Assembly (NCBI RefSeq): GCF_000477435.1
Contig: NC_022576.1
Coordinates: 248,001 to 312,000, forward strand
DNA length: 64,000 bases
Reading direction: 5' to 3'
Source of the DNA: Candidatus Symbiobacter mobilis CR
Lineage (GTDB): Bacteria > Pseudomonadota > Gammaproteobacteria > Burkholderiales > Burkholderiaceae_C
In this document: piece by piece, positions 668 to 44,819 of the stretch
Position numbering within the stretch: the stretch's first letter is position 1
Layout of the letters: each line of letters starts with the position of its first letter
Translations under genes and position numbers: made by a program
Notes under the pieces: model-generated
Database searches by the model: none
Told to the model about the DNA's origin: nothing
The model's input: the letters and a program-made list of their open reading frames with translations, nothing else

Positions 668-3600
668 TCATTTTTTTATGTCAAAGAACAAAAAGCCATC
701 AGGTTCCTTGCTTCGACGGAAGTAGAAAAGTGTAGGGGACTGTGCGACCACAGTGCGGGTTGTCTTTTCGGAATTCAAGCGCCTCGCCCCTCGGGAGCCG
801 GGAGCAAGAGACAATGTTCCAGAGCGAATTTGTCGCGCCAGCTCTGGCACTCGCAAGGTTGAATAAGTCAGCCATTCAACCAACCCAACAATTCCGTCCT
901 TGGGCGCAAAGTCGGCCGCTTTTGTGTCGAGACCATCAACCATCAGCGCATAGCTCAGTAAGCCCTGCCTCAGTTGACTGCTTTCTAGCGCCACGTCATC
1001 TGCCTGCGTAGCAACCAGAACTGCAACACCTTTATCGTAGGCCAACTGACCCAAACTGCGACTATCCATCGGGCCGGGAACAAACCCCTCGGCATCGACC
1101 GATGCAGCGGCGTGGCAGGCATCAATAATTAGCACGGTCTGGTAAGTGTCAAGTCCATCCATCCATCCAGACAATTCTTCACTTGCAATAGCATGACTTA
1201 ACAACTCCGGGGTAATTGAACGAGAACTACCTGCACCAGTGTCAGATGGCAACAGGTAAAACTTGCTCTCGTTATCCGTCAAACCATGTCCTGCGAAGCT
1301 GATGATGACGGTGTCGTTTATATCTGCACGACGCAACCCGGCCAACACAGGGTCGCTACTAGCCGGCGCCTGCCCCGCAAGAATTTGAATTGCCTCACGG
1401 ATGCGCGCTTTGCTGGCCGTGTCGCCGCTGTCATCTGACACTAAGGACACCTGAATCCCTTCGCCCATCACGCCAAATTTGGCCAATTGAGCAGCCAGAG
1501 AGTTACCTATTAGCCTTGCGTCATTGGCCGCATAGTCCAGGTTGAAACTTGCGTTCTCGTGGCGGTTCACCCCAATGTTGATGAGAAAAACCCTCTTGCG
1601 GCTATGTGCCTGGGTAAGGTTATTGACATCCCACACCGGTTTGTAGTCAACGGCCGCAGTGCTACTTACTCCTTCCAAATCATAAGCAGTTGCCTCAAAC
1701 CGAAGTGACGGAATGCCTGGTTTGTAGCTCACTGGATCAACAATGAGCTTAAACCGCACCTTACCCGCCAATGACGCAGGCATATCTTCTTTTCTAAAGA
1801 CTTTTACCTGCACTCCATCACGAAGCAAGCGCACCCCTCCCAACTTGGCGGTGTTTGACTGCACTTCTATTTCCACCCGCAGCGCAGCAGGGTCACTTGC
1901 AGACGATGCCACCTTGCTTATGCGCACCTCCGGTGGATCAAACTTGGCCGACGCTTTCACCTGCCTGGTGGACAAGCCATTGGCCAACGTATGCCGCAGC
2001 AATCGTGGCTCAAACCCCGAGCGGGCTAACCATTCAAATGGCAGCGGCTTCAGAGGTTGGTCGGCTCGATACCAAGCGAGAGACCGAAGGTCTGCAATAT
2101 CGCCCGCGTCAAATCGTCCATCGGACGTGTTCACCAACCAGGGGAACATCTGCAGACAGATCCCCACTGAGCAGTTATTGCCAAAAATTTCAGGAAAAAT
2201 CCGCATCTCCAGCAACGGCAAAGGCTGGTCAACCTGCCACAGGCGCAGAGCATGGTCCTCCTCCAGAACGACCAAATGTCTCGCGTCCAGCCAAACAGCC
2301 GAGTAAGGGAAAACGAGTTGACCAAAGTCTGTTGCGCGACCAGTGACTGTGTCAAGCCAAGCAGATTTCTGCCCCCAAGTGCCTAGCAGTGCAAGCCGTT
2401 TTCCGTCAGTTGAGCGCGTAAGTTGCGTACCAAAAGACCCGGTCGCAATAGGTGTATGCCAGCGGGGCGCCGTGTTGCCGGATACGCCATAGGCACTCAC
2501 CCCGCGCTCAGTCGCTATCCACACCTCGCTGCCATCAAGAGACAGTTGCTCTGCGCTTATAGAAAAGAAAGTGTCGGACGTGGGCTGTAGGGACAGTAGC
2601 CGACTGCCACTGGCAACGTCAGTCACTTCGAGAACATTTGCACCACCTATGAGTAAGCGCTCCCCCTTTTCATCCAGACTTAACCGCTGGGGCTGGTGCA
2701 GCGTCGGTAGTACGGTGACGGGTTGAAGGTCAGGTAGAGCATATACGCCAACCCCTCCCTGTTGTCGAGCGACAAAGGCATGGCGTCCCGCTATATCCGT
2801 TGCAAGAGCCATTGGGTGATCGTTTAATTCTTTCTTTGCTACGACACGCCCCTCCCGCAAGTCGTAAATCATCAAGAAGCGATCATTCGCAGGCCCCTCG
2901 CTCCCAATCAGCAACACTTTCTGATCGGGCAAAAAGCTTGCAAATTTTGTGTCCCATAGGTTCCCGGGTTCGACGGTGTAACTAGGACGGCCGCTCTCCA
3001 TATCCCATAGCGTCAGTTTTCCTAGGCCTGCCTGAAGCAACCAGCGGCCATCGGTACTTGCTGCAATGACATAGTCAGACGGCGCTGCTACCACTGCAAT
3101 GCGCCCAAGCAGTTTTCCACTGTGGCGGTTGAGCGTAATAACTCCTGCGTTTCCCGCCACAACCACAACATCCTTCCGTATCGCCACCAAATTGAGATCG
3201 CCAAGACCGTCGCCAATCGACATCCCTTGCGCATTCTCATTCGGCCAAAGTTCCTGGCGCTGACTGCCGCGCATCAGCGTCAGCGTACGCCCACTACTGG
3301 CTGCAACAAATCCATCTGCCGTTAGGGCGATGGATGAATTACGCGCATCACCCACACCATAATCCGTTACCGGCCCCGGCTTACCCTTACTGTCGAAAAC
3401 CTGTAACGTGCCATTAGCCAACTGAACTGCCACGCCAAGACTGGGCTCAGGTGCTGCAATCAACCGCACTGCGTTACCAGCCAAGGCAACTTTCCAGATT
3501 AGTTTCCCAGTTGTATCCAGACTGCGTAGCTCGCCGCTACCCAGCAACCACCAGCCGTCCGAGTGCTCAAGTGCGTCCGCCAAGAAACCACTCGCATCGG

Positions 3601-4114
3601 CCTGTTGCCCTGCGTGCAGTTTCTGGGGCGCGAGCTTTCGACAACCTTTGGCCTGGAAACGATGAAGCACCCCAAAGTTTGTTAGCCCCCAGCCATCGCC
3701 TGAATTGTTCACATGTACACGGATGAAATCTAAAACTTCAAAGAATCTATTTGGGTCATGGTCAAACTGAAAAGCGCAGACCACTTTGCCGTCTGCAACC
3801 CGCCATAGGCGCACCTCAGCGCCATCTGCGCCACTGATCAGCAGTGCCCCGTCATCACTAAATGCCAGGGAATGCACACCATGTCCGTGTCCTCTGAGGG
3901 TCTTCCACTGTCGGCCCGACGCCGGATGCCAGATGTTGATGGTCTTGTCTGCCGCCCCTGTTGCAACCCATTGTGCGTTTGCCGATACGGCCATCACGTC
4001 CGGGACATGGGCGTGTGGCACCATCAGCCTAATTTCACTCACTACAGCCCAGGTAGCTGACCAGGACATCAACACCACAACCCCAAGCAAGCTTGTGATG
4101 CCTATCGTTCTCAC
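668..4114 (-). CDS. WD40-repeat/caspase-domain protein
   Basis: About 1148 residues. A membrane-anchor or signal segment at the N-terminus is followed by a long WD40-like propeller region (for example INIWHPASG, VRLWRVADG, LTLWDMESG) and a C-terminal caspase-like (peptidase C14) domain. The catalytic dyad is visible: His about 943 in SFAGHGLTD and Cys about 1000 in IIDACHAAA. The chosen start is GTG at 4114. It overlaps the TGA stop of the upstream TPR-CHAT gene in a GTGA tetranucleotide and has GGGGA just upstream. A longer reading frame would need a TTG at 4147 and would run over the CHAT tail. The predicted role is a protease triggered through its propeller sensor, co-translated with the CHAT protein. 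The substrate is unknown. Confidence 0.85.
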   Translation of the reverse strand: MRTIGITSLLGVVVLMSWSATWAVVSEIRLMVPHAHVPDVMAVSANAQWVATGAADKTINIWHPASGRQWKTLRGHGHGVHSLAFSDDGALLISGADGAEVRLWRVADGKVVCAFQFDHDPNRFFEVLDFIRVHVNNSGDGWGLTNFGVLHRFQAKGCRKLAPQKLHAGQQADASGFLADALEHSDGWWLLGSGELRSLDTTGKLIWKVALAGNAVRLIAAPEPSLGVAVQLANGTLQVFDSKGKPGPVTDYGVGDARNSSIALTADGFVAASSGRTLTLMRGSQRQELWPNENAQGMSIGDGLGDLNLVAIRKDVVVVAGNAGVITLNRHSGKLLGRIAVVAAPSDYVIAASTDGRWLLQAGLGKLTLWDMESGRPSYTVEPGNLWDTKFASFLPDQKVLLIGSEGPANDRFLMIYDLREGRVVAKKELNDHPMALATDIAGRHAFVARQQGGVGVYALPDLQPVTVLPTLHQPQRLSLDEKGERLLIGGANVLEVTDVASGSRLLSLQPTSDTFFSISAEQLSLDGSEVWIATERGVSAYGVSGNTAPRWHTPIATGSFGTQLTRSTDGKRLALLGTWGQKSAWLDTVTGRATDFGQLVFPYSAVWLDARHLVVLEEDHALRLWQVDQPLPLLEMRIFPEIFGNNCSVGICLQMFPWLVNTSDGRFDAGDIADLRSLAWYRADQPLKPLPFEWLARSGFEPRLLRHTLANGLSTRQVKASAKFDPPEVRISKVASSASDPAALRVEIEVQSNTAKLGGVRLLRDGVQVKVFRKEDMPASLAGKVRFKLIVDPVSYKPGIPSLRFEATAYDLEGVSSTAAVDYKPVWDVNNLTQAHSRKRVFLINIGVNRHENASFNLDYAANDARLIGNSLAAQLAKFGVMGEGIQVSLVSDDSGDTASKARIREAIQILAGQAPASSDPVLAGLRRADINDTVIISFAGHGLTDNESKFYLLPSDTGAGSSRSITPELLSHAIASEELSGWMDGLDTYQTVLIIDACHAAASVDAEGFVPGPMDSRSLGQLAYDKGVAVLVATQADDVALESSQLRQGLLSYALMVDGLDTKAADFAPKDGIVGLVEWLTYSTLRVPELARQIRSGTLSLAPGSRGARRLNSEKTTRTVVAQSPTLFYFRRSKEPDGFLFFDIKK

Positions 4115-6840
4115 AACCAATTCCCCATCAAAATAAACGGCGCCCAAAAATACGGGTGCGCATAGGGTGCTGTGGGGTTAAAGGCAAAGGCGGCAGCGGT
4201 GCCCTGCCTTGGCACGAGCTGCGCACCACGCTGCTCCGGTGTAGTGTTGGGCTGCTCGCCCGCCTTGGCACCGGTGCCTTGCAGCAAGGCCAGTTGCGCC
4301 TGGCGCAGGGCTTCGGCTTTGGTCAGGTGATCGCTTTCGCGCAATTGGTAGAAGCGCGCCATCAGCAGCGCAGTGCTGGCGTCGGCCACCGGCCACAGCG
4401 TGGCCATCACGGCCTTGGCACCTTGGCGCTGGGCGATGAACGAGAGGCCATCGACTTCGCGCCCGTTGCTGTCTTTGCCGCCGCCAATGCCGGTTTCGCA
4501 CGCCGACAGGGTGAGCAGGTCAACCCCGCCAAAGAGGTTGTTTTGCCGAACCAACTGCGCCAGGGTGATCGGGTCTCCGGCACCGGTCAGCAGGTAGCTC
4601 ATGGTGTCGTTGCCAGGCTCCAGGTTGAAGTGGCTGGCGACGTGGATCAGCGGGTATTTGCCCTTGCGCTTGAGTTCGTCTTGCATCGTGGCCCAGGTGA
4701 ATTCGGGGTTCAAAAGCCGCGTGCCTGGCATCACGCCCTGGCCGCCAGGCACGCGAATCACGGTATCAAGCTCACGCGCCACCGCTGGCAGCGCCATGAA
4801 ACTCCTTTGCTCCACCGTGCGCGCTTCGCTCACGCCCAGGCCCAGCGCGTTCCATCGGGTTTTGGGGGCATCCTTGAGGTTGCCCAGACTGGCCGGGGTG
4901 AAGGTGGTCAGGCGGTAGCGCTCCACCAGGTACTTCTCGCCATCATGCAGCGCCGCCAGCGGCAACAGGCGCAAAACACCATCCAGGTGCCACATCAGAG
5001 TGCCAGCTTTGGCCTGTTGCAGTTCGGCGCGCGCCGCCGGGGGCAGAATCACATCCAGCAATGCACGTGCTTGCGGCACCGGATCCAGGGTTGGGGCCTT
5101 GAGGGTGGTACGCCAGGCGGCAATCTGCTCGTTAAGGGCACTGGCCTTGATCGGCACGGTGTGGGCACGCCGGTACTCGGCTGTGGTCAGGATCAGGGAA
5201 TAGCTCTCTGGGTCAACCACGGTATAAAGGGCCACCACGGGCTGGCCCAGGCGTTCACCCAGCTCGCGCAGAATGTCTTGCAACCCCTGCGCGTCCTTGA
5301 TCTCATCCACCTTGTCGGGGCGCGTGGTGGTGAGTGCGGCAAGCACCCGGTCAAAGGCTTGCTGGAAGGCTTCTCCGGCTTGATCCAACTGGATTTGCAG
5401 ACTCTGGCGGCGGCTGTCTTCGGCGGCACTGCGGTTCTTTTTGTTGTCAAGCTCGGTGAATTCGCTGTAGAGCTGTGCCAACGGCGCACCGGCTTGAAGC
5501 AGCATCTTGTCCTGGGTGGCTTCAAAAGCAGTCAACGTGGCTCGCCCTGATGTAGAGGCCAAAGTAGCATCGCGGCGAACAAACTGAAACTGCTCCTGCT
5601 CTTTGAGCAGTTCAAGCACCCGCTCTGCCTCAACCAGTCGGCTTTGGGCGATAAGCAGGTGCGCCAGACTGCGGTAGGTGCCCTCAATGGTGGCATCAAA
5701 GCTCTTGAGCGTGTCCTTGCCCAACTCGGCCACATTGGCGCGCAACCCTTGCAAGGTATTGACCGCCTGCTTGCCAAAGAAGATGGCGGCATCGGGCTTG
5801 TCTTGGGACTTGAACAGATCGCTGAGATTGTTTTGAACGTGTCGCAGCAACTCGGGGTTGCCGGCCTTGAAGGCTATGCGGTAGGCACGGCGATAGAGCG
5901 GCTCGGCTTGGGTGGGTTGGCCCATGGATTGGTACAGCCCGGCCAGGTTGTTCAGGCTCGTTCCGGTTGAGGGATGGTCGGGGCCTTCGGCTTTTTCAGA
6001 GATCGCCAAAGCGCGCACATAGAGCGGCTCAGCTCGGGCGTACTGGCCCATGGATCGGTATAGCCCGGCCAGGTTGTTCAGGCTCGTTCCGGTTGAGGGA
6101 TGGTCGGGGCCTTCGGCTTTTTCAGAGATCGCCAAAGCGCGCACATAGAGCGGCTCAGCTCGGGCGTACTGGCCCATGGATTGGTACAGCCCGGCCAGGT
6201 TGTTCAGGCGCGTTCCGGTTGAGGGATGTTCGGGGCCTTCGGCTTTTTCAGAGATCGCCAAAGCGCGCACATAGAGCGGCTCAGCGCGGGCGTACTGGCC
6301 CATGGATCGGTACAGCCCGGCCAGGTTGTTCAGGATCGTGCCGGTTGAGGGATGGTCGGGGCCGTTGGCTTTTTCAGAGATCGCCAAAGCGCGCACATAG
6401 AGCGGCTCAGCGCGGGCGTACTGGCCCATGGATCGGTACAGCCCGGCCAGGTTGTTCAGGCTCGTTCCGGTTGATGGATGTTCGGGGCCATTGGCTTTTT
6501 CTGAAATGGCCAATGCGCGCACATAGAGCGGCTCGGCGCGGGCGTACTGGCCCATGGATTCGTACAGCCCGGCCAGGTTGTTCAGGCTCGTGCTGGTTGA
6601 AGGATGTTCGGGGCCATTGGCTTTTTCTGAGATGGCCAGTGCGCGTTGGGCAGGAATCAGCGCGGCGGCGTATTGACCTGCTTGGTAGAGCTTGATCACT
6701 TCACTGTTGAGTCGGTCAATTTCAGCTTGGCTACTGGCCTCAGCCGTAGGCGACTGGGATGCCTCAGGTGTTTGTGCTTGCGCCTGCGGCAGTTGCAGGC
6801 ATAGGCTGAACAGTAGCCCGGTTAAGGTGAGTGTTTTCAT
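4111..6840 (-). CDS. TPR-repeat CHAT-domain protease
   Basis: 909 residues. A signal peptide (about residues 1-22) is followed by six almost identical 42-residue tetratricopeptide repeats of the kinesin-light-chain type (about residues 68-319, with motif SLNNLAGLY), a helical linker, and a C-terminal CHAT (caspase HetF-associated) domain. The CHAT His (HVASHFN) and Cys (TLSACETG) are both present, so it is probably an active cysteine protease. GGAGG lies 7 bases before the ATG at 6840 and settles the start; a TTG immediately upstream is less likely. Its stop overlaps the start of the WD40-caspase gene (GTGA). TPR-CHAT proteins are known effectors in some immune-like systems, for example the CHAT protease TPR-CHAT/Csx29. 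The partner here is unknown. Confidence 0.9.
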   Translation of the reverse strand: MKTLTLTGLLFSLCLQLPQAQAQTPEASQSPTAEASSQAEIDRLNSEVIKLYQAGQYAAALIPAQRALAISEKANGPEHPSTSTSLNNLAGLYESMGQYARAEPLYVRALAISEKANGPEHPSTGTSLNNLAGLYRSMGQYARAEPLYVRALAISEKANGPDHPSTGTILNNLAGLYRSMGQYARAEPLYVRALAISEKAEGPEHPSTGTRLNNLAGLYQSMGQYARAEPLYVRALAISEKAEGPDHPSTGTSLNNLAGLYRSMGQYARAEPLYVRALAISEKAEGPDHPSTGTSLNNLAGLYQSMGQPTQAEPLYRRAYRIAFKAGNPELLRHVQNNLSDLFKSQDKPDAAIFFGKQAVNTLQGLRANVAELGKDTLKSFDATIEGTYRSLAHLLIAQSRLVEAERVLELLKEQEQFQFVRRDATLASTSGRATLTAFEATQDKMLLQAGAPLAQLYSEFTELDNKKNRSAAEDSRRQSLQIQLDQAGEAFQQAFDRVLAALTTTRPDKVDEIKDAQGLQDILRELGERLGQPVVALYTVVDPESYSLILTTAEYRRAHTVPIKASALNEQIAAWRTTLKAPTLDPVPQARALLDVILPPAARAELQQAKAGTLMWHLDGVLRLLPLAALHDGEKYLVERYRLTTFTPASLGNLKDAPKTRWNALGLGVSEARTVEQRSFMALPAVARELDTVIRVPGGQGVMPGTRLLNPEFTWATMQDELKRKGKYPLIHVASHFNLEPGNDTMSYLLTGAGDPITLAQLVRQNNLFGGVDLLTLSACETGIGGGKDSNGREVDGLSFIAQRQGAKAVMATLWPVADASTALLMARFYQLRESDHLTKAEALRQAQLALLQGTGAKAGEQPNTTPEQRGAQLVPRQGTAAAFAFNPTAPYAHPYFWAPFILMGNWL
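5884..6639 (-). repeat. Six tandem 126-bp TPR-coding repeats
   Basis: Six consecutive 126-bp units encode the 42-residue TPRs of the CHAT protein. They differ mainly at ANGPEH/AEGPDH-type positions and at the residue before SMGQ (E, R or Q). The high identity suggests recent duplication or gene conversion. Confidence 0.85.
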
Positions 6841-6986
6841 CAAAAGACCTCCAGTTGGCAGTAGTTACATCAGGGTTGGACAATGCTCACGATGGATGTC
6901 ACATCCGTTTAGGCTGTTACAGAATTCATGAATACAAATGAAATCAGGACTTGGGTTATAGGAATTTTTGATTGGAAATTATCCGA

Positions 6987-7704
6987 TCAGATCCCATGGC
7001 GTTGAAGCAGCCGAGTGACCTCCGCTTCGCTTAAGCCGACTAGGCTGGTGATCAATTGGGGTGGCAGACCGTTTCGGTGTGCGTTGAAAATGACGGCATG
7101 ACGTTCGGCCAGACGGCCTTCCTCCTCACCATCTTTCCTAGCCTTTGTCAATGCATCCCGCTGCAAAATAATAAAGTCCCGCCGTTTGTGTTGGGCTTCT
7201 AGTTCTGCTTCGCTTAAACCCGCCTCGTTGATCATCTCAAAGGCTTGGTGAATGCACGGGGTGTCAAGGCTTTGCGGGATGATGTCGAGTTTGCCTGCGT
7301 TTTTGATGAAGTAAATCCATTTTTGCTAATAAAACAAAATCTGTAAAGGTGAGTGCGATGACGGGGTTGAGCATTTTGTAATGCTCGCCCTGGTGCAGTT
7401 GGCTGGAGTATTGTTTGGCAGCGTTGTAGAGAATGCGTTGTTCGAAGCCTTCCACATTGAGCACCTGCATTTCGATGATGACCTGGCTGCCATTGGCCAG
7501 CACGGCCTTGACATCGACAAAGCTGTCTTTCATGCCCTTGAGCAGGGGAATTTGGTAGGGATCGACAATCTCCAGGTCAGCAATGGCAAATTCGCCAGCG
7601 CAATCAAGCATGGCATTGAGAAAGTCGATCAACACCGGTTTGGACTGTTGCGAACCAAAAACTTTTTTGAAAGCAAAATCGGTTCTGACATCAAGAAAGC
7701 GCAT
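6987..7704 (-). pseudogene. Rpn-family PD-(D/E)XK nuclease, internally deleted and frameshifted
   Basis: The 5' part (7704 down to about 7335) encodes the start of an Rpn (recombination-promoting nuclease/putative transposase) protein: FLDVRTDFAFKKVFG, then VDVKAVLANG and IIEMQV, which contain the nuclease core residues. After LTFTDFVLL about 70 expected residues are missing. The sequence resumes in another frame (KWIYFIKNAGKL) and continues to the typical C-terminus with GLSEAELEAQHKRRDF, ending at 6987. The gene is therefore broken. Rpn genes are mobile and often found in accessory regions, which fits this neighbourhood. Confidence 0.8.
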
Positions 7705-8579: not shown

Positions 8580-8596
8580 AACCATAAAAGACACCC

Positions 8597-11536: not shown

Positions 11537-11565
11537 GCAGGGTCCTCGTGGGTTCAATCAAATAG

Positions 11566-22898: not shown

Positions 22899-23142
22899 CA
22901 AACGCCGACTACGGTTGTCGGGAACGGAGGTGCCGAAGGAAGTGGTGTTGGTATATAAATCATAATTGATGCCAGATGAATACTGTAGAGGAATTGCACG
23001 TATAAATAGAATTGATTCAACGTATTGCGTAGAAAGTGCGGGCGTTCATGACTAAAAAACCTCTGTTCCTTGGTTATTTTGAACCAATTTTTTGCACCAT
23101 AGGAAACGGATTGTTCCCATGCCATCGATGACTGTTTCAATC

Positions 23143-31718: not shown

Positions 31719-31731
31719 TGAAGGAGGAATC

Positions 31732-32723: not shown

Positions 32724-34425
32724 CCAGGCTCCCCTTACCGATTGGGCAAGCCAAGCTGAACTACCACTGATGCCCACGCAGCATCAACGGTCGGCATCAA
32801 GGGGCAAGTTGGGGCACGTTTTGCGGTAGGGCAGAAAATCGCCAAGAAACTCTTGCCATTCCGCGCGGGTCAGGTTGCGGTGGACACATTGGCACAGGTG
32901 GTCCCGCCAACTGGCCTGGTTGATGTCCCAAAGCCGGACGGTGTTGTCCTTACTGCCCGAAGCGAGCACCTTGCCGTCCGGACTAAATGCGACTGAAAAG
33001 ACACCATCTTCATGTCCCTGCAAAGGCTCGCCCAAGGGTTTGCGGGTGGCAACGTCCCACAACCGCACGGTCTTGTCCCCACTGCCCGAAGCGAGCACCT
33101 TGCCGTCCGGGCTAAAGGCGACGGAACTGACATCAGCTTCATGCCCCCGCAAAGGCTCGCCCAAGGGTTTGCGGGTGGCAACGTCCCACAACCGCACGGT
33201 GTCGTCCCAACTGCCCGAAGCGAGCACCTTGCCGTCCGGGCTAAAGGCGACGGAATTGACCCCCTTTTCATGCCCCCGCAAAGGCTCGCCCAAGGGTTTG
33301 CGGGTGGCAACGTCCCACAACCGCACGGTGTCGTCCCAACTGCCCGAAGCGAGCACCTTGCCGTCCGGGCTAAAGGCGACGGAATTGACCCCCTTTTCAT
33401 GCCCCCGCAAAGGCTCGCCCAAGGGTTTGCGGGTGGCAACGTCCCACAACCGCACGGTCTTGTCCCAACTGCCCGAAGCGAGCACCTTGCTGTCCGGGCT
33501 AAAGGCGACGGAATTGACCCCCTTTTCATGCCCCCGCAAAGGCTCGCCCAAGGGTTTGCGGGTGGCAACGTCCCACAACCGCACGGTCTTGTCCCCACTG
33601 CCCGAAGCGAGCACCTTGCCGTCCGGGCTAAAGGCGACGGAACTGACATCAGCTTCATGCCCCCGCAAAGGCTCGCCCAAGGGTTTGCGGGTGGCAACGT
33701 CCCACAACCGCACGGTCTTGTCCCCACTGCCCGAAGCGAGCACCTTGCCGTCCGGGCTAAAGGCGACGGAACTGACATCAGCTTCATGCCCCCGCAAAGG
33801 CTCGCCCAAGGGTTTGCGGGTGGCAACGTCCCACAACTGCACGGTCTTGTCCCTACTGCCCGAAGCGAGCACCTTGCCGTCCGGGCTAAAGGTGATGGAA
33901 TAGACAGTATCTTCATGCCCCCGCAAAGGCTCGCCCAAGGGTTTGCGCGTGGCAACGTCCCACAACCGCACGGTCTGGTCCAGACTGCCCGAAGTGAGCA
34001 CCCTGCCGTCCGGGCTAAAGGCGACGGAACGTACCCAGCTTTCATGCCCCCGCAAAGGCTCGCCCAAGGGTTTGCGGGTGGCAACGTCCCACAACCGCAC
34101 GGTGTTGTCCCCACTGCCCAAAGCGAGCACCTTGCCGTCCGGGCTAAAGGCGACGGAAGTGACATTACTTTCATGCCCCCGCAAAGGCTTGCCCAAGGGT
34201 TTGCGGGTGGCAACGTCCCACAACCGCACGGTGTCGTCCCTACTGCCCGAAGCGAGCACCTTGCCGTCCGGGCTAAAGGCGACGGAATTGACCCCCTTTT
34301 CATGCCCCCGCAAAGGCTCGCCCAAGGGTTTGCGGGTGGCAACGTCCCACAACCGCACGGTCTTGTCCCTACTGCCCGAAGCGAGCACCTTGCCGTCCGG
34401 GCTAAAGGCGACTCCACTGATTGTG
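32724..34425 (-). repeat. Second arm of inverted repeat; 12 tandem 129-bp WD40 repeats
   Basis: This arm covers the 3' flank, tail and WD40 array of the copy 2 nSTAND gene and is inverted relative to about 26085-28035. The non-repeat tail and 3' flank (27835-28035 versus 32724-32930) are also almost identical, so this is a true duplication and not just similar repeats. The homology ends at a CCAGG, which is where IS21 inserted. Confidence 0.85.
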
Positions 34426-36215: not shown

Positions 36216-37645
36216 GCTCGATCTTTCGCGCTTTTGCGGCTTTCACGCACGCTGGCCTTGACCTGATCCAGAAACTGTTCGGTCGTAATGCCGTCTGGAA
36301 GATGCTGGCACGTCAGGGCACGCAGACCGGCTGGCAGCAGCGGGTCGTTCAAGCCCACATCGTCGATGCGAACCAGCTTGATGGCCAAGCTACCTTCAAA
36401 AAGCTCGGCACGGGCCAAGGCCAGTTTCCATTCCTTCAAAAAATAGGGCTCATGTGCCGGATCATTCCGATGCTCGTCGCGCCATTTGGCGAGTCGGGCC
36501 AGGGTGGCGCGTGAGAGGACGGGAACGAAAACCCCGCACAGACCGATGTTGCGCTTGATGATCTTTTCATAGCTGTCGCCGCTGCCAAGCCGTTTGGCAT
36601 CAAACCAGACATCGATGCGCCGACCAGTCATGGCGCCGTGCAGGCTGGTGGCGGCGACGGCGTCGTCGCTGGCGTAGCTCAGAAACACACCCCCAGGGTG
36701 TAAATCAGGGGGCACATCGGCGGCGACAGTGGGAGAGGAGCTTTGTCTGCGCGCTTGCCAGCGCGTTTCCAGCTCGGTGACAAAAGCTGCTGGGTCCACC
36801 TGAAGGCAGTGGGTGCGTGGGCTGAAATGGTCCAGAAACGTGACCAGGCCCGGTTGGTTGGGCAGGCGCGTATCCACGATGGTTTCGCTTTCATTGCGGG
36901 CTAGCGTTTCGGAAAGTCGCCCTTCGCGCGTCAGACGGACAAAAAACCGCAGCAGCCAGTCGGGCAGTGTGCAGCCCAAAAAGAGCAGATGGTGCGAACG
37001 CAAGGCATCGAAGATGTGCTGGGGCTGGTGGTCGGTGTCTTGCAGCGAGGCAATCCATTCCAGCAGGTCTTCTTCGCTGATGACAAACTCCGGCGCCGCG
37101 CAGCTTTTGCCAAAGAGTGCATACACATGGGGTTCGTCGAGTTGTCTGGCCGGGGCAGGTATATCGATTTCAGTGCGGCGCAGGTTGGGGGCATAGCCGA
37201 TATGCTGCTTTTTGGGGTTGTGAAGATCACGGTTCTTTTCCAGCGCATGGATCAGCAGCGTGTCAAAACACAGGCTGAGATAAAGCCGAAAGCCCTCGAT
37301 GCGCGCCAAGGCAAGCAGGGGTTCGGGTGGTTCTAGTGCGCACAATCCACGCAAAATGTTATGTACTTCGGTGTGGTAGTCGGTAATGGTTTGTTCAAGC
37401 CGGTCTGCACGCTGTGCCTGGGCCACGATAGCGTGGAGCGATATGTCTTCGTCGTCGACAGCATCGACCTCAACATCAAAGCGCCTTGCCAGCCGCCGGG
37501 CAATAGCCTGTTCCAGCCGCTCGGTACGGCCATCCACGGTGACTTGCAACAGCCACGGGCCAACGACCGGAATCACCCGGCCTTCTTCAATTTTGGCCAG
37601 CAGGGTGTTCCAGAATTTTTCAGTGGGCTGTGTTTTGATAGCCAT
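36212..37645 (-). CDS. SIR2-like/TIR-domain protein, copy 2 (probable pseudoenzyme)
   Basis: 477 residues from the ATG at 37645; a TTG at 37681 would add 12. The domain order matches copy 1: SIR2-like (VIPVVGPWLL, PHVYALFGK), then TIR (GVFLSYASDDAVA, WFDAKRLGSGDSY). The His expected in VY(H)LLGK is Ala 176, and the TIR catalytic Glu is replaced by Gly 354 in RLGSGD. Both NAD-cleaving sites are therefore probably dead, although the frame is intact and the fold motifs are kept. It overlaps the nSTAND gene (ATGA). It may act as a scaffold, inhibitor or decoy. A degraded WD40-gene tail lies just upstream. Confidence 0.85.
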   Translation of the reverse strand: MAIKTQPTEKFWNTLLAKIEEGRVIPVVGPWLLQVTVDGRTERLEQAIARRLARRFDVEVDAVDDEDISLHAIVAQAQRADRLEQTITDYHTEVHNILRGLCALEPPEPLLALARIEGFRLYLSLCFDTLLIHALEKNRDLHNPKKQHIGYAPNLRRTEIDIPAPARQLDEPHVYALFGKSCAAPEFVISEEDLLEWIASLQDTDHQPQHIFDALRSHHLLFLGCTLPDWLLRFFVRLTREGRLSETLARNESETIVDTRLPNQPGLVTFLDHFSPRTHCLQVDPAAFVTELETRWQARRQSSSPTVAADVPPDLHPGGVFLSYASDDAVAATSLHGAMTGRRIDVWFDAKRLGSGDSYEKIIKRNIGLCGVFVPVLSRATLARLAKWRDEHRNDPAHEPYFLKEWKLALARAELFEGSLAIKLVRIDDVGLNDPLLPAGLRALTCQHLPDGITTEQFLDQVKASVRESRKSAKDRA

Positions 37646-37694
37646 GGGTGGTTTGGTTGGGGATCTGGCACCTGGCTTCAATCAGGCTTTGGCA

Positions 37695-37770
37695 GGTTGG
37701 GTCAGGTTTTGCGGAAGGAAAGCAATCGCCAAGGAACTCTTGCCATTCTGCCCAGGTCAGGTTACGGTCG
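37695..37770 (-). pseudogene. Relic tail of a third WD40 gene
   Basis: Read on the minus strand this stretch encodes RNLTWAEWQEFLGD followed by a Pro/Lys/Cys-containing end. It is clearly related to the RNLTRAEWQEFLGD tails of both nSTAND-WD40 proteins but lacks any propeller before it. It shows that another nSTAND/WD40 gene once preceded the SIR2-TIR copy 2. Confidence 0.65.
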
Positions 37771-37805
37771 ATGAATTGGCATCAATGGTCTGGTCAACTA
37801 GCCAA

Positions 37806-39038
37806 TCAGGTTTGCTTGGATGGCTGCATTCCTTTCAGCTCCTGGATTCGGGACTCAAGGATGTCGCGCAGCGATTGCATGTCGGCTTGTTTGGTTCCTG
37901 GGTGTTCGGTGGCACTTCGTAGCAGATCGAGGGAGCGTTGGTATACGGCCAGTGCCTCGGCCGTGCGGTTCGATTCCGATAGCACCATACCCAGGTTCAA
38001 GAGTGTGGCAACCCTTTCGTCTGGGGGAGCGTTGCGTTGCATATCGATGGAGGCTGCTTGGGTCAGGGTTTGCAGTGCTGCTTCTTTGTCACCACGCAAT
38101 AGCTGCCAAACCCCTTGCAGTCCGCGCACATTGGCGGCGGCGGCGCTGATCTGTTTCCCTGCCTGATCCAGGATGGTCAACGCTTCTTCCAGCAAGGCAA
38201 AAGCTTGGGGGCGATCCCGGTATCGGTAGAACGCACGGGCTTGTGCAACAAGTGCCAGCGCGGTGTCTTCGGGGTGTGGTGTGCGTAGGCGGCGATAGAG
38301 AGTGGTTCCGGCACCGTGCAGCCCCAGGGTTGTTTCCTTGTTACCGAGCAGGAGGGCGTGTTCCCCTGCTGCCATAAATGCCCAAGCGAGGCTTTGGTCT
38401 GCCGCGCTGGCTTGGGGAAGCCGCCCTGCCAAGGCGAGCATTTGTGCCAGGGGTTCCCGTGCGGCATCGGGGGACATGGCAGCGACAACCCGGCGCTGGG
38501 TCGCGTAAACCTCTGCCAAGTACTCGGCATCGCGGCGGATTGATGCTGCCTGGGTTGCATCTTCCACGCGAACCATACGCAGTGCTGCGTCTACGAAGTT
38601 GCAACCGCTCTCGTTGGCTTCCTCACGCCAGGTTGCGGACCAGTTCCCTGCCACAGCGGAGGCTTGGAGAACGCCGATGTGTTGGTTGGTAGACAGCGAA
38701 AGTAGCGCTGCGGTCGATGCGCCCGGGCCCCAACGAAGTTGTATGGGGTGCATGTCTCCCCATAGCATCCATAGAGGAGAGGAATCAGGAGATTGGTCGC
38801 CCGGTTCTGTAGACATCAAGCCAAAAACAGTCAATCGGTAAGGTAGCGATGGTTGCGCGCCACATTCGCTGCCGACGTGTTGGCGCACCTCCAATTCCCC
38901 GCGCCAGGCTGTTGCATTGGTGGTGTCGGCCATTGCAGCCACTGGCGGCGCGGCAAGGCAAAGGCATAGGCGTAGCATCATTGCCAGGCGCGATGAGCGC
39001 CGAGGTTGCCGGGCTGTAGCATGGGGGAGAGGATGCAT
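37806..39038 (-). CDS. TPR-containing secreted protein
   Basis: About 410 residues from the ATG at 39038. A signal peptide (MMLRLCLCLAAPPVAAMA after a basic stretch) precedes a region with WGDMHPIQLRWGPGAST and a C-terminal set of TPR-like helices (about 230-400), including AFALLEEALTILDQAG and ALAVYQRSLDLL. No Shine-Dalgarno is visible, and ATGs at 39098, 39086, 39038 and 38981-38978 are all possible starts. It probably acts in the periplasm as a scaffold. The function is not recognised. It is in the same accessory block as the caspase-DUF4384 gene but on the other strand. Confidence 0.7.
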   Translation of the reverse strand: MHPLPHATARQPRRSSRLAMMLRLCLCLAAPPVAAMADTTNATAWRGELEVRQHVGSECGAQPSLPYRLTVFGLMSTEPGDQSPDSSPLWMLWGDMHPIQLRWGPGASTAALLSLSTNQHIGVLQASAVAGNWSATWREEANESGCNFVDAALRMVRVEDATQAASIRRDAEYLAEVYATQRRVVAAMSPDAAREPLAQMLALAGRLPQASAADQSLAWAFMAAGEHALLLGNKETTLGLHGAGTTLYRRLRTPHPEDTALALVAQARAFYRYRDRPQAFALLEEALTILDQAGKQISAAAANVRGLQGVWQLLRGDKEAALQTLTQAASIDMQRNAPPDERVATLLNLGMVLSESNRTAEALAVYQRSLDLLRSATEHPGTKQADMQSLRDILESRIQELKGMQPSKQT

Positions 39039-39645
39039 GGTATGGGTGACTTGGGTGGTTGGGATTGCGTGGAATGTGGAAGCCATGGTGATTTGCATGA
39101 GAGGAAGGATGTTGCAGTACCCTCGCGATTGCTGCTGGATGCTACCGATCGCAAAGACCAGACAGGTGTCTTTGAGGGGGACAATGCACGTATAGACGAT
39201 GCACTTGCCGTTTGTCAAGTTGTTTTTCAACAGATGTGTTGTAATTACCCTGCAAAATTTTTTCTGCAGGGCTGCCAGAGCAAGCAAGAGCATGCAAGGG
39301 AAAAGGAAATGGATACAGTGCAACCTCGGCTACGGTATGTACGGTATACATCCATTTTTCGGCTTTCAGAATCCATCGCGGCTTCCGTCGCTTCTACCAA
39401 AGCGTAGCATCTCTATCCTTGGTGTTTTGTGCTGGCGACTGTTGTTGCATGCCTCCCTGCTGTCCTTTTGCACCTACCCCTAGTTGTGGGCACCACTCGT
39501 GTTGATGGAACGTTGGGCATGATGTCCAGATGGTATGCGATGGGCGGTATTTTTACAGTATCGAATGAAGATGCCGTGAATATCTATTGCATTAGATAGA
39601 TTTGTTAACAATATATTTTTCTTGCTAACCAAAAGGAGTGTGATA
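39039..39645. other. Intergenic region between divergent genes
   Basis: About 600 bp. The right part (39500-39640) is AT-rich and presumably holds the promoter of the small secreted protein at 39646. In the left part the upstream frame of the TPR gene stays open to 39323, but nothing supports a start there. No RNA gene or repeat was seen. Confidence 0.5.
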
Positions 39646-40137: not shown

Positions 40138-40239
40138 GATCAACGTTCGCCTGCAACTGTAAGTTATTTTCCCTTTTGTACGTTGCGACAGTTCCTTGGC
40201 GCATCCGGAGGTTTGTTTGGGTTTGGTGATGGAGGCGGT

Positions 40240-41751
40240 ATGCGATACAGCGTTTCTCAATGCATGTCGGATGATCAAAGCATTGGCTGCAATGCAGCCA
40301 CAGCAACGGAATTGGCGTTTTGGCGCAGATTCCGTGTTCTGTGGATGGTGTGGTTGGCATTGCCTTTCATGCTGGCCCAGCACGCGTTGGCTCAGGTCCA
40401 GTTGCCTGGAGCAGCTTCGGGGTCTTCGGGTTTCGCGGCAGTCGTTGCGCAGGTCGCCCCAGGAGTAGTGGGTATTTCGGTAAGCCAGTCCCGGTCTGCA
40501 GACAACCCATTGCTGAATGACCCTGTTTTTCGGCGATTTTTCGAAGATCTGCAGGGTGAGCGTGGTCATGGAGACAGTGCTTCGCACACTGATCGGCCCG
40601 TGATGCGGCCCGCTGGTTCCGGTGTCGTGGTGGACGCTGCGCGCGGCTTGGTGCTGACGAACCACCACGTTGTGCAAGGGGCTTCGCGCCTTATGGTGAT
40701 GTTGAATGACCGCCGCGAACTGCTGGCAGAACTGGTGGGCTCTGATCCTGGGACAGACGTGGCTGTACTGCGTGTGCGGCCCGAGAAGCTCACAGCAGTG
40801 CCAGTGGGAGATTCCGATGCCTTGCGCGTGGGGGATCTCGTCGTGGCGATAGGCAATCCCTTCGGGTTGGGGCAGACAGTGACCTCAGGAATCGTGTCTG
40901 CAATGGGCAGGGGACTTTCCCCAGAAGGGTACGAGGACTACATCCAGACCGATGCTGCCGTCAACCCTGGGAATTCCGGTGGCGCGCTGATCAATATGCG
41001 CGGTGAACTCGTTGGAATCAATACGGCCATTCTGAGTGGTGGAAGGGGAGGGCAAGGCGGGAATATCGGCATTGGCTTTGCTATTCCGACCAGTATGGCG
41101 CAGGCTGTGCTGGATCAGATCATTCGATTCGGCGAAGTCATGCGTGGCCGCATTGGCGTACAGGCGGAAGAAGTTACCGAGGCCGTGGTGGCACGGGAAG
41201 GACTTCCCATTATTGCCGGGGCGTTGGTGCGTTCCGTAGCCAGCGGTTCTTCGGCAGACAGGGCGGGTCTCCGAGTAAATGACGTTGTGCTGGAAGTGGA
41301 TGGTCGTCCGGTGCGTACAGTGTCAGACCTTCGTAACCGGGTGGCGCTGATCCCCGTGGGGAACCAGATTCGGCTGAAAGTCTGGCGGCGCGGTGTGCAG
41401 TCGGTTTTGCAAGTCCCGGTTGAGGCCGTCAGTGCCGACGAAGTTGCCAAGGCACAGCAGCAGACGCCTGCCAGTAGTGCCCCCGGTGTGGCCAAGCCTA
41501 GTGCCCCCGAGTCCACCTCCGTACTCCAAGGGATGCAGTTGTCCCGCGGGCGTGATGGGTTGTTGGTGAGTGGCGTGCGTGCGGGTGCCCCCGCTCATGC
41601 GCTAGGCTTTCGCAATGGCGATGTGATTCTGGGGGTTGATCGGGCGCCGGTTTCTACCGTCCAAGAATTTGGTGCTGTACTTCGTCGAAGTGGCAGCAAG
41701 GTCATTTCCGTTTTGAGAGGGGAGGTCAAGCTGCGATTGCATGTGGGCTAG
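40240..41751 (+). CDS. HtrA/Deg-type periplasmic serine protease
   Basis: 503 residues. After an N-terminal signal or anchor segment comes a trypsin-like protease domain with a full triad: His 143 (TNHHVV), Asp 173 (GTDVAVL) and Ser 246 (NPGNSGGAL). Two PDZ domains follow (about 320-410 and 440-503). It degrades or refolds misfolded envelope proteins in the family's usual role. GGAGG lies just before the ATG at 40240. The frame opens earlier at a TTG without support. It may form a unit with the downstream PPC and caspase genes, so it could also process one of them. That is inference. Confidence 0.9.
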   Translation: MRYSVSQCMSDDQSIGCNAATATELAFWRRFRVLWMVWLALPFMLAQHALAQVQLPGAASGSSGFAAVVAQVAPGVVGISVSQSRSADNPLLNDPVFRRFFEDLQGERGHGDSASHTDRPVMRPAGSGVVVDAARGLVLTNHHVVQGASRLMVMLNDRRELLAELVGSDPGTDVAVLRVRPEKLTAVPVGDSDALRVGDLVVAIGNPFGLGQTVTSGIVSAMGRGLSPEGYEDYIQTDAAVNPGNSGGALINMRGELVGINTAILSGGRGGQGGNIGIGFAIPTSMAQAVLDQIIRFGEVMRGRIGVQAEEVTEAVVAREGLPIIAGALVRSVASGSSADRAGLRVNDVVLEVDGRPVRTVSDLRNRVALIPVGNQIRLKVWRRGVQSVLQVPVEAVSADEVAKAQQQTPASSAPGVAKPSAPESTSVLQGMQLSRGRDGLLVSGVRAGAPAHALGFRNGDVILGVDRAPVSTVQEFGAVLRRSGSKVISVLRGEVKLRLHVG

Positions 41752-41832: not shown

Positions 41833-42528
41833 ATGTCGTTTCAGACTCGTTTGGTTCCCTTTGCTTTTGCAGCGGTATCGCTGTTCTGCATCCCGGTTTT
41901 TGCTGATGGCAATCCAAAGAGTTCGAATGTGGGAGAGGCTACTGCGCCCACGGCCAGTTCGACTGCTGTCGATCATTGGGAAACAGCAATGGCTTTGGTC
42001 CGTTATGGAGATAGCAAGCAGGACGCACTGGCGATGATTGCGGCTGCCCGGATCATGAAGGAGGTGGGTGATAGTCCCTCGAAGGCCGCAGTCGTCAAGG
42101 GCTCTGGTCAAACAACATCGGCAGACAAGAAAACAGACACGTTGACTGTGGAAGCAATCTTGGCCAGGGCCAAGCAGTATGCCGGGGATCGCAAGGATCT
42201 GGTAGCTTTGGCGGAGGATGCAGCCAGGGTAGGAGGGCGCGGTGCCGTGCATGGCCCTGGGCGTAAGAGTACCCTTGTGTACAGAGGTACGCAGGACGTA
42301 TATCAGGTAGCTTTTCGTGGCGGTGAGCCAGCCATTGTGTTTGCTGCGGGGGACGGGGACTCCGATCTGGACTTGTATGTATATGACGAGAATGAAAACC
42401 TGATTTGTAGTGATACAGACCTCACTGATCGGATGCTGTGCCGTTGGTCGCCAAGATGGACTGGGCAGTTTACGATCAAGGTCAAAAACCTGGGTATGGC
42501 CAATTACTACACGATCGTCCATAACTGA
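41833..42528 (+). CDS. Secreted PPC-domain protein
   Basis: 231 residues. A signal peptide (to about residue 24, VFADG) precedes a helical middle part. The C-terminal domain of about 95 residues has DSDLDLYVYDENENLI and a final beta-rich segment typical of bacterial pre-peptidase C-terminal (PPC) domains. These are usually binding or export modules of secreted proteases. Here it stands alone, between an HtrA protease and a caspase-domain protein. GGGGG sits just upstream of the ATG. Confidence 0.8.
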   Translation: MSFQTRLVPFAFAAVSLFCIPVFADGNPKSSNVGEATAPTASSTAVDHWETAMALVRYGDSKQDALAMIAAARIMKEVGDSPSKAAVVKGSGQTTSADKKTDTLTVEAILARAKQYAGDRKDLVALAEDAARVGGRGAVHGPGRKSTLVYRGTQDVYQVAFRGGEPAIVFAAGDGDSDLDLYVYDENENLICSDTDLTDRMLCRWSPRWTGQFTIKVKNLGMANYYTIVHN

Positions 42529-42653: not shown

Positions 42654-44819
42654 ATGAACGTCCATCGTTTCATGCGTTGTTGTGTATTGGGTATTGTCGT
42701 GTGGGCTATTTCCATGGCAGCAAGTGCGTCTCCCACTCCGTCAAGATACCGGGCGCTTCTTGTTGGAGTGTCGGAGTATCCATTGCTCCAAAAAAGAGAT
42801 CTATACGGTCCCAAAAATGATGTTGCCAAGATGCGCGAATTGTTGGCAAGTTATGGTGTCCCCAAAGGGAATATCACCGTTTTGGCGGATGGGGTGGAAG
42901 GCTCTGTGTCTATGCCAACCCGCAAAGATATTCTCGCTTCTTTGAAGCAGCTTGCTGACAGTACCTTGCCTGGAGACTACGTCATTCTTTTTATGGCAGG
43001 GCATGGGAGCCAGCTCCCTGTACCAGAGCGCAGCCCTTTCGCGATAGATGAGCCGGATGGTTTGTTCGAGGTTTTTTTGCCACGGGATATTGCACGTTGG
43101 GAAGGCGATGAGCAAGATGGCGATGCGAAGCAAAACCAAGCGATTGTGGATCACGAAATTCGCGCCCATGTAGATCGGATTGCGACAGCGGGCGCCTTTG
43201 TTTGGGCAATTTTTGATTCGTGTCACTCTGCCACGATGGTGCGGGGTGGGGATGTACGACTGCGACAGGTGTCACCATCGGACTTGGGAGTTCCCCAGAG
43301 TGCCATCACAAAAGCTGCCAGTCGTGCAGCTTCCGTATCTGGAAGCGTGCAGCGCCAACGTAGCTCTTCTGGAAGTGGGCGTTCTGTGTATTTTTATGCG
43401 GCACAGACTGATGAACAAGCACCCGAAATGCCTTTCCCTAGAGATGTTCGGGAAAGGGCGAAGCAGGGTGGTGTCGACTACGGCCTTTTCAGTCACACGC
43501 TGCAGCAAGCGCTGGAGGGTGGTGCGGGAATGACTTACCGTCAATTGGCGCAGCAGATTTTGACTCGCTATCGGGCAATGGGTCGTGGAGATGCACAGGC
43601 TACTCCACTGTTTTCTGGATCGGGACTCGACGAGGATGTGCTCGGTAAGCCTGCCGTTTCATATCGGCAGTGGCAACTCGACTTCGAACCGCCAATGAGT
43701 ATTCCGGCCGGAGAGTTGGCTGAGGTGTACGAGGGTGCTGTGTTTGCCATTCTGCCTTCGGCAACTGCAGAATCGACAGAAGCATTGGGCTACGTTCAAG
43801 CTATCCATACTAGTGCTACCAGCGCGGAGCTGGCCCCGGTGGCCTTCGGGCAAAAGCCTGCGTTTTCGGAGTCACAGTTACAAGTTGGCAAGATCGCCAG
43901 ACTGGTGCAGTCATCTGTGCCATTTTCTCTGGCTGTGGCCACAGATTTGACGCAATGCAAGATACCTTGTCCTTTTGCGGAACCGCTACACAAATTGGCC
44001 ACTGCGCCACAGCAAGCAGATGCGATCAGAGATGTACGTTGGGTCGATCATGCGGATGAGGCACAAGTGGTTTTGCGTGCGCAAGGTACCCGACTGTGGT
44101 TCTTGCCACAGAGTGTGGCTTCGCTGAAAGTAGAAGACTCCGTAATGCCCGAAAAGCGCTATGTGTATCTGGATCTCGGTCCAAAGGCAACTGCTGAAGG
44201 GATACGTACAAAATTGGTACAGAATTTGCGGTCGGTGCGGAAAGCCACCAATATTGCTCGTGCTGCTGCAAGCCTATCCAATCAGTCCGTAAACAATTCC
44301 TTGGAAGTTAAAATATCTCGAACGAAAGATAGACAGGAATTGCCAATAAATCCTAATGAAGCTATTCCTACATTTTATCCAGGAGATGTTATCAAGGTTC
44401 GCATGAAGAATACTGGCTTAAAAAATCTTGATGTCACTGCACTATATGTAGATAGCAAGTTTGGAATAACGATTATGTTTCCGAATCCGGTGGGGTCAAG
44501 CAATCGACTACAGCCTGGAGCCAGCTTTCCGTTCGAATTCCAGATTACTGATTCTACTTTGGGAATGGAACAGATTGTGCTGGTGGTAGTGGAGGCCAAA
44601 GAACATTCCGATCGGGCAGATTTTTCTTTTTTGCAACAAGATGCAGTTCCGAGCGAAATTGTTCGCCGAGGGACAGCAGAGCAAGATCGGTTGATTCTTG
44701 ATCAATTTATTCGGGGTATGGGCGCTCCAGAATACGCAGTTCGTAGTGCAAGTCCTAGCCCTTCATTGTCTGCAACAGGGATGCAGGCATTCTGGTGGAA
44801 GGTGGAGTCGCGACCCTAG
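42654..44819 (+). CDS. Caspase-domain protein with C-terminal DUF4384
   Basis: 721 residues. A signal peptide (to about residue 25) is followed by a metacaspase-like domain with His 117 (MAGHGSQ) and Cys 190 (FDSCHSAT). A middle region is unassigned. The C-terminal DUF4384-like beta domain (about 560-690) contains FYPGDVIKVRMKNTG and GITIMFPNP. The dyad is intact. It is exported, so it is likely active in the periplasm. It follows the PPC gene on the same strand and lies in the accessory block. The C-terminal 180 residues are more A+T-rich than the rest. Confidence 0.88.
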   Translation: MNVHRFMRCCVLGIVVWAISMAASASPTPSRYRALLVGVSEYPLLQKRDLYGPKNDVAKMRELLASYGVPKGNITVLADGVEGSVSMPTRKDILASLKQLADSTLPGDYVILFMAGHGSQLPVPERSPFAIDEPDGLFEVFLPRDIARWEGDEQDGDAKQNQAIVDHEIRAHVDRIATAGAFVWAIFDSCHSATMVRGGDVRLRQVSPSDLGVPQSAITKAASRAASVSGSVQRQRSSSGSGRSVYFYAAQTDEQAPEMPFPRDVRERAKQGGVDYGLFSHTLQQALEGGAGMTYRQLAQQILTRYRAMGRGDAQATPLFSGSGLDEDVLGKPAVSYRQWQLDFEPPMSIPAGELAEVYEGAVFAILPSATAESTEALGYVQAIHTSATSAELAPVAFGQKPAFSESQLQVGKIARLVQSSVPFSLAVATDLTQCKIPCPFAEPLHKLATAPQQADAIRDVRWVDHADEAQVVLRAQGTRLWFLPQSVASLKVEDSVMPEKRYVYLDLGPKATAEGIRTKLVQNLRSVRKATNIARAAASLSNQSVNNSLEVKISRTKDRQELPINPNEAIPTFYPGDVIKVRMKNTGLKNLDVTALYVDSKFGITIMFPNPVGSSNRLQPGASFPFEFQITDSTLGMEQIVLVVVEAKEHSDRADFSFLQQDAVPSEIVRRGTAEQDRLILDQFIRGMGAPEYAVRSASPSPSLSATGMQAFWWKVESRP

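Follow-up and report, generated by a model that had tools for sequence, protein, structure and literature searches.

An acquired island of NLR-like receptors, SIR2-TIR proteins, RCK-RyR membrane proteins and caspases in Candidatus Symbiobacter mobilis CR

The genome of Candidatus Symbiobacter mobilis CR carries a dense run of genes for caspase, CHAT, TIR, SIR2, nSTAND and RyR (ryanodine receptor) domain proteins, which raises the question of whether they form one defence machine, linked modules or a pile of independent systems. We analyzed a 64,000-nucleotide stretch of this genome (hereafter the window; G000:C1:248001-312000 of a single contig of 2,991,840 bases), with domains called by Pfam scans of the island open reading frames (ORFs; gene letters as in Table 1); statements drawn from cited papers rest on parts of their texts. 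In our best reading, suggested by domain content and gene neighbourhoods, the run would be a ~50-kb island of acquired DNA that serves defence or non-self recognition, with a core of two modules resembling NOD-like receptors (NLRs). We hypothesize that the TIR product of these modules acts on a channel-like effector with a RyR domain, a linked model to which we assign, in this broad form, a probability of roughly 0.45. A putative role in abortive infection is plausible, and any anti-phage effect is a prediction.

The block is an acquired genomic island whose flanks are joined in close relatives. The border gene T (TgpA) was matched in all 23 genomes of the genus, our own included (weakly in two). 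The region was taken from seven of the 22 congeners; in six of them T directly adjoins a homologue (53–57% identical) of an SLT_2 transglycosylase gene, and in the seventh one ORF lies between. In our genome this transglycosylase gene lies in the left flank (L011:13534-14733), ~50.1 kb from T. Since the block separates two genes that are neighbours in congeners, the insertion reaches ~5.3 kb left of the window, and the island spans G000:242,734-292,851 (~50.1 kb; on the window scale, from about -5.27 kb up to 44,851). Gene S ends 32 bases short of the T stop codon. Searches found neither direct repeats at the island borders nor a tRNA in the window. Carriage by a phage or plasmid was considered and rejected, as no relative of H or of the SIR2-TIR proteins was confirmed in viral contigs and plasmids, with H as the sole query, gave one weak RyR-only match.

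A family search of the genome placed all three Peptidase C14 caspase matches, all three CHAT matches and both nSTAND1 matches above the cut-off inside the island (three weaker nSTAND1 matches, below it, lie elsewhere), and these eight matches, at G000:244.2-291.6 kb, fall within 1.7% of the genome. Both full-length SIR2-TIR proteins of the genome are also encoded there, and its one RyR match, when 300 genomes from the order were searched (4/300 with a match), is H. The chance of such six-domain clustering is 8e-9 by a naive figure only, because paralogues are not independent. Scans and clustering thus bear out the sequence-only reading, which had described an island of these domains from letters and translations. 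Its extent of 44 kb (668..44819) was right at the right end, near 44,851, and too short at the left, which lies at about -5.27 kb for ~50 kb in all. Three caspase-fold proteins (C14 in A, G and S), two SIR2-TIR proteins (SIR2_2 and TIR_2 in I and O) and two nSTAND-WD40 NTPases (nSTAND1 and WD40 in J and N) were correctly named. Of the other assignments, CHAT holds for B and F, but there is a third TPR-CHAT gene (CHAT0), a minus-strand gene that starts at base 75 of the window; the RCK-RyR call holds for H (TrkA_N and RyR), while K has TrkA_N and its RyR domain lacks a Pfam match; and E carries VIT plus DUF2135, with no VWA model matching it.

At the core of the island, genes for SIR2-TIR proteins (I, O) stand in pairs with those for nSTAND1-WD40 proteins (J, N). 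The same two-gene module was present in 77 of 80 loci (the best 80 of 143, found via a pattern in the SIR2 half), the other three lying at contig ends; a stricter re-test also gave 77/80. Residues were counted in 83 full-length relatives out of 115 profile matches, 32 under 380 residues being left out. In all 83, as in I and O, the SIR2 half lacks the Asn and His that we take to be the catalytic pair of the ThsA SIR2 active site, in a residue register that comes from a weak alignment to ThsA (E 0.93). The TIR NADase glutamate was present in 83/83 relatives and, by motif, in I and O. These patterns suggest that the SIR2 half is a pseudo-enzyme, likely serving assembly or nucleotide binding, and that, as far as active-site residues tell, only the TIR half can be a NADase. 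The new detail is the loss of SIR2 residues beside a kept TIR glutamate across relatives, which offers a clean, testable case of a pseudo-sirtuin.

Both receptors carry an nSTAND1 domain (E 7.5e-32 and 1.8e-27) with a GxSGxGKT P-loop and a DQFEE Walker B motif. Their NTPase parts are 46% identical (173/378 residues, alignment columns up to 400), whereas linker, WD40 array and 3' flank share 90–93% DNA identity in the ten longest inverted arms. Not one blade of J has an identical counterpart in N; therefore, the arrays have diverged since being shared. With the blade Trp numbered 37 after Hu et al. (PMC5587647), the five most variable of 43 blade positions are 11, 12, 14, 30 and 32. The same five lead over all 26 blades, in J alone (12 blades) and in N alone (10 blades), the split analyses leaving out 4/26 units, the first and last of each array; two more positions reach 0.41 variability in J alone. 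Repeats of Podospora HET-D/HET-E are classed by the high-dN/dS positions 10, 11, 12, 14, 30, 32 and 39 (PMC12222747), and the chance that five drawn positions all fall inside these seven is 2e-5. Over the same 22 units, pN and pS were 0.52 and 0.27 at the five variable sites versus 0.023 and 0.07 at the other 38, for sites picked post hoc; the separate analysis of J and N is the fairer check.

Repeat identity averaged 0.80 (J) and 0.81 (N) over unit pairs; a period scan gave 0.95 and 0.97, respectively, for the best 120 residues. Both proteins thus lie above the threshold of at least 0.7 internal identity used by Hu et al. (PMC5587647), and above a stricter 85% rule (PMC4986451) on one measure only (best 120 residues). 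Highly repetitive WD40 proteins make up about 20% of prokaryotic WD40 proteins, with no single role, and diversity at their hotspot sites was already noted (PMC5587647); the novelty of the J and N arrays is their setting. They provide a bacterial system in which to watch receptor repeats diversify at fungal NLR positions. The idea that repetitive arrays are general to SIR2-TIR partners was rejected, as 3/79 nSTAND1 proteins of the compared loci reached at least 0.6, one being another STAND gene on the minus strand of L054. This further STAND-WD40 gene (L054:1-3764; internal repeat identity 0.90), from a Nitrosomonas bin that also holds a SIR2-TIR pair, adjoins a gene for a protein with a TIR-like-looking N-terminus.

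The candidate receiver of the TIR signal is H. Its RyR domain holds all four residues (His, Trp, His, Asp) that bind cyclic ADP-ribose (cADPR) in RyDEP, at the same spacing, as do 9/9 close homologues. Its RCK lobes resemble those of MthK, GsuK and TrkA, and in one relative (P0134) a channel-pore model matched, fused with the RCK-RyR parts. A complete ligand site beside an active-looking TIR makes H a direct test of whether bacterial RyR domains sense TIR nucleotides; if they do, the animal cADPR–RyR link would have bacterial roots. The idea is probably not new here, as a 2015 survey of nucleotide-based conflict systems reportedly predicted RyR domains as nucleotide sensors.

Searches of the class, the family, named genomes and other orders gave 14 RCK-RyR loci (weaker RCK-only matches left out), all matched by a RyR-region model (E 1.4e-7 or better among 17 sequences). 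With L184 and L095 set aside as loci reached through SIR2-TIR, a TIR or STAND gene lies near the RCK-RyR gene in 6/12 loci (L139, L177, L178, L179, L180 and L182), compared with 0/16 control stretches. The controls were a non-random set of seven caspase/FGE loci, seven congener stretches and two flanks of our own island, from which L141 had been removed (17 to 16) for its RyR match (its weak TIR match scored 21 bits), and the three other RyR-matching genomes of the 300 lay outside the comparison. The STAND neighbours in L177, L180 and L182 carry DUF4062, a domain recently reported to be a TIR-like NADase (PMC13174449).

That the combination may be functional, and not a mere heap, is indicated most strongly by a single locus, L023, in a distant bacterium (bin CTSoil_042). 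Here, seven same-strand genes form one run that encodes a caspase (34% identical to S), an RCK-RyR protein (58% to H), a caspase-FGE protein (65% to G), PilN/PilO, an ankyrin-repeat protein (with membrane helices by eye), a SIR2-TIR protein (42% to I) and an nSTAND1-WD40 protein (N-terminal part 50% to N). The RCK-RyR and caspase-FGE genes share an ATGA overlap identical to that between H and G. Because the whole set recurs as one same-strand run, chance hardly explains it.

Several of these neighbourhoods have features of their own. In two bins (L023:6273-17966 and L024:6318-17985), SIR2-TIR/nSTAND pairs belong to a run that also includes PilN/PilO and ankyrin-repeat genes as well as genes that look pilin-like and T2SF-like by eye, possibly a pilus-linked defence operon. 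In L179 and L180, a separate TIR gene lies between the STAND gene and the RCK-RyR-like gene. At L139:9195-12735, the RCK-RyR gene follows the gene for a TIR protein with a peptidoglycan-binding domain; the two genes might form a compact TIR/RyR system. At L140:130-3207, on a 3.5-kb contig, an RCK-RyR gene and a Cas_NE0113 gene are divergently oriented, hinting at a CRISPR-linked use of RyR proteins.

We propose the following sequence of events. In the cytoplasm, an nSTAND1 NTPase that bears a repetitive WD40 array would sense an intruder protein, and the activated receptor would switch on its SIR2-TIR partner, whose TIR half would make an ADP-ribose-type nucleotide. The RyR domain of the membrane protein H would bind this nucleotide, so that H is opened or gated, and damage would be executed by G, the caspase encoded by the gene that overlaps H, together with the other caspase and CHAT proteins. 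Gene content, the insertion site, the loss and conservation of residues, the pattern of variable repeat sites, the gene overlaps and the recurrence in L023 are observations; receptor sensing and activation, the identity of the nucleotide, a channel role for H, its link to the proteases and any effect on phage are predictions. A bolder version, a bacterial cADPR–ryanodine receptor axis in which repeat-shuffling NLR-like receptors signal through TIR to an RCK-RyR channel-like protein genetically locked to a caspase, joining membrane failure to proteolysis, appears doubtful to us.

A number of observations weigh against the linked model. H and I are divergent, with 276 bases between their ORFs, and do not form one operon. 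The membrane part of H has a low pLDDT (predicted local distance difference test), and no channel-pore model matched H or K (Pfam; the K N-terminus was also scanned alone). The RyR domain of K, seen by homology to H (31 bits with a RyR model built from H and relatives), keeps the first His and has no Trp, second His or Asp at those spacings; the last 15 codons of K lie in the IS21 left-end repeat (window:30018-30090), so its 3' end was altered and K may be a clipped gene. Only 2/80 SIR2-TIR loci have an RCK-RyR neighbour (1/80 with caspases as well), and the two SIR2-TIR pairs of G038 have no RCK-RyR or caspase gene within 20 kb (against window proteins, E 1e-5). Beside RCK-RyR genes, no TIR or STAND gene was found in the long stretches L176, L181 and L183 or the short contigs L140, L158 and L175. 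Three of the six positive loci are the weakest by RyR (L179, L180 and L182; 27–28 bits on the RyR-region model), L179 and L180 being near copies, and Pfam matched neither RyR nor TrkA in L182 and no RyR in L180. Ligand binding by the WD40 arrays is putative. PADLOC returned only cross-matches to TIR, caspase, TPR, CHAT and WD40 and no fitting system, and the VIT protein E is probably a passenger.

In the competitor that survives best, several defence systems accumulated independently at a single hotspot and exchange no signal, namely two NAD-depleting SIR2-TIR/nSTAND pairs, an RCK-RyR/caspase pair and duplicated TPR-CHATs. SIR2-TIR/nSTAND pairs and E homologues do occur mostly alone: among 17 stretches around E homologues (9–20 kb each), none had a relative of the caspase, RCK-RyR, SIR2-TIR or nSTAND1 proteins and one had CHAT (in G286:C44, a caspase match lies ~14 kb from the E homologue, beyond the compared stretch). 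Relatives of G with caspase or FGE domains are widespread (198/300 genomes), the seven caspase/FGE loci L142–L148 showed no RCK-RyR gene, and the pieces of CHAT and receptor genes that were duplicated or left as relics suggest accretion. Against this stand the recurrence in L023 of the caspase, RCK-RyR, caspase-FGE, SIR2-TIR and nSTAND set and the frequency of TIR/STAND neighbours of RCK-RyR genes elsewhere (6/12). We regard this pile-up as a serious possibility, although we lean towards linked modules.

Alternatively, H could be an off-switch whose RyR domain hydrolyses the TIR-made nucleotide and damps self-toxicity, as the phage RyR-domain protein RyDEP binds and hydrolyses a cADPR-type nucleotide with the catalytic dyad H75/D117 (PMC13232231). 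The dyad corresponds to H572/D614 in H, and its spacing is kept in 9/9 close homologues. However, the ligand residues are also conserved in the R12 domains of animal RyRs, where adenine ligands are bound within a channel (PMC13232231), and gating is the better fit for a domain joined to membrane helices and RCK lobes, with a channel pore as well in P0134; we consider an off-switch improbable.

The arrays of J and N might instead serve kin or self/non-self recognition in communities, as does fungal HET-E, and not phage sensing; the HET-E-type repeat pattern and the closely similar array common to two receptors agree with this. To our knowledge, cell fusion is as a rule absent in bacteria. HET-E arrays act after such fusion (PMC12222747), and repetitive WD40 arrays are tied to no one role in prokaryotes (PMC5587647), which leaves kin recognition improbable. 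A single system was rejected because E looks stand-alone and SIR2-TIR/nSTAND pairs mostly occur alone; with E a probable passenger, the island would not be one machine. The sequence-only reading had allowed for several systems, and several are indeed more likely than one; as to whether the homologues occur singly across genomes, E and most of the pairs do, whereas the full set recurs in L023.

The island is not one known system, and the linked model borrows from several. Thoeris comes in type I with the SIR2 protein ThsA, type II with TM-macro and type IV with a caspase-like protein, and TIR signals acting on membrane or caspase effectors are established for it (PMC12847820). The island would likewise set a TIR NADase domain beside a candidate nucleotide-binding effector, and caspase and membrane outputs are known for Thoeris. 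However, no ThsA-type architecture (SIR2-SLOG, TM-macro) was found among the scanned proteins, the effector role would fall to an RCK-RyR membrane protein, and the TIR domain shares its chain with a pseudo-SIR2 and has an nSTAND1-WD40 sensor as partner; the divergent arrangement of H, with its RyDEP-like site, and I is replaced in L023 by counterparts on one strand. An RCK-RyR receiver of a TIR signal would be a new variant of Thoeris-type signalling. Unlike Avs5/SIR2-STAND and other antiviral STANDs, the island has effector and STAND in separate genes, with a WD40 sensor, lost SIR2 residues and a kept TIR Glu.

With Podospora HET-D/HET-E and repetitive prokaryotic WD40 proteins, J and N share highly similar repeats with the same variable positions (PMC12222747, PMC4986451, PMC5587647) and repeat regions common to paralogues with more different N-terminal parts, but they are bacterial, have nSTAND1 for NACHT and have their effector in a separate SIR2-TIR gene. 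The RyR (R12) domain of H resembles RyDEP in its four equally spaced ligand residues (PMC13232231), although H is a bacterial RCK membrane protein and RyDEP a small phage protein. Ternary (MoxR-vWA) and EAD conflict systems share caspase, CHAT, TIR, STAND and FGE parts (PMC7159879, PMC8195603); the scanned island genes include no MoxR, VMAP or iSTAND component, which makes the island unlike the ternary systems. The earlier likening to multi-component conflict systems holds in that these and Thoeris-type TIR signalling come closest, without the MoxR/VMAP component. By titles and abstract openings, none of the papers found dealt with an RCK-RyR effector, most subscription journals being outside the search, and no paper joined the RyR domain with SLOG, TIR and nucleotide, or with bacteria and TrkA, the hyphenated spelling 'RyR-domain' being outside the search.

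Table 1. Island genes, relics and the right border gene, in window coordinates unless a flank (L011) is named.
Feature	Position	Strand	Basis and remarks
CHAT0: third TPR-CHAT gene, start portion	1..75, continuing L011:16215-20000	-	TPR_12 + CHAT; 1286 aa; 51% identical to B; HLASH / LSACET
A: beta-propeller + C-terminal caspase	668..4147	-	WD40; Peptidase_C14 1.2e-5; FAGHG / DACHA
B: near-identical TPR repeats + CHAT	4111..6843	-	CHAT 1.9e-53; HVASH / LSACET
PDDEXK_2 gene relic	7264..7704	-	profile 2-129 of 229 matched
CHAT gene relic, final 12 residues	7792..7831	-	11/12 residues as B, 12/12 as CHAT0
E: VIT + DUF2135 protein	8597..11557	-	Pfam scan; homologue neighbourhoods
F: TPR / propeller / CHAT, 2247 aa	11837..18580	+	CHAT 2.3e-59; HLATH / LSACES
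G: caspase + FGE (C-lectin fold)	18925..20547	-	FAGHG / DACRN; gene start overlaps H end
H: membrane helices, two RCK lobes, RyR, C-terminal alpha/beta region	20544..22901	-	TrkA_N + RyR
RyR domain of H: H572, W575, H597, D614	21006..21215	-	RyDEP residue numbers from PMC13232231
I: pseudo-SIR2 (aa 1-281) + TIR (aa 301-441)	23178..24515	+	SIR2_2 + TIR_2
J: nSTAND1 NTPase + highly repetitive WD40 array (aa ~517-1109)	24512..27970	+	P-loop, DQFEE
K: second RCK protein, degenerate RyR	28158..30065	+	TrkA_N; final 15 codons inside IS21-end repeat
istA/istB, IS21-type, separating two receptor modules	30177..32469	+	related repeats 30018-30090 and 32562-32634
N: second nSTAND1 + highly repetitive WD40 array (aa ~588-1100)	32784..36215	-	Pfam scan, repeat analysis
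O: second pseudo-SIR2 + TIR	36212..37681	-	SIR2_2 + TIR_2; end overlaps N start, 4 bases
Third WD40 receptor, 3'-end relic	37691..37803	-	78% DNA identity, 114 aligned bases, to J and N 3' ends
P: TPR-end protein	37806..39323	-	Pfam scan
Q: DegP-like trypsin + PDZ	40183..41751	+	NHHV / DVAVLR / GNSGG
R2: small protein, weak pre-peptidase C-terminal similarity	41833..42528	+	PPC E 0.11, below cut-off
S: caspase protein, right border	42654..44819	+	MAGHG / DSCHS
T: TgpA/transglutaminase gene, first beyond island	44852..46879	-	adjoins SLT_2 gene in congeners

Gene overlaps, duplications and relics record how the island is put together and that it has kept changing. Four-base overlaps join H-G, I-J and O-N, and B/A overlap by open frame only, so that an earlier statement that most genes have coupled starts was too strong. 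The relics noted from the sequence are real, comprising a PDDEXK_2 fragment, a CHAT C-terminus and an nSTAND-WD40 C-terminus, with an IS21 pair (30177-32469) that looks intact; a fourth CHAT gene and a third WD40 receptor survive as 3'-end scraps. Downstream of both CHAT0 and the relic CHAT end lie 417 bases that are 97.6% identical (L011:15804-16220 and window:7382-7798), suggesting a CHAT tandem duplication that was partly lost. A 151-base direct repeat (97%; window:7828-7977 and 11561-11711, the latter upstream of E) brackets E, which may have arrived or been duplicated with it. TPR repeats are highly repetitive in their best 120 residues in B (0.94) and CHAT0 (0.79).

Signal-peptide-like N-termini were seen in B, CHAT0, G, S, F and R2 and, by eye, in both caspases of L023; the crude predictor also flagged I, O and 7/17 flank ORFs. 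Export of the proteases is an impression that would bear on how cytoplasmic signals could reach the caspases. Just past the island, window:47249-49117 encodes a protein with an Lcl_C domain matched in two stretches.

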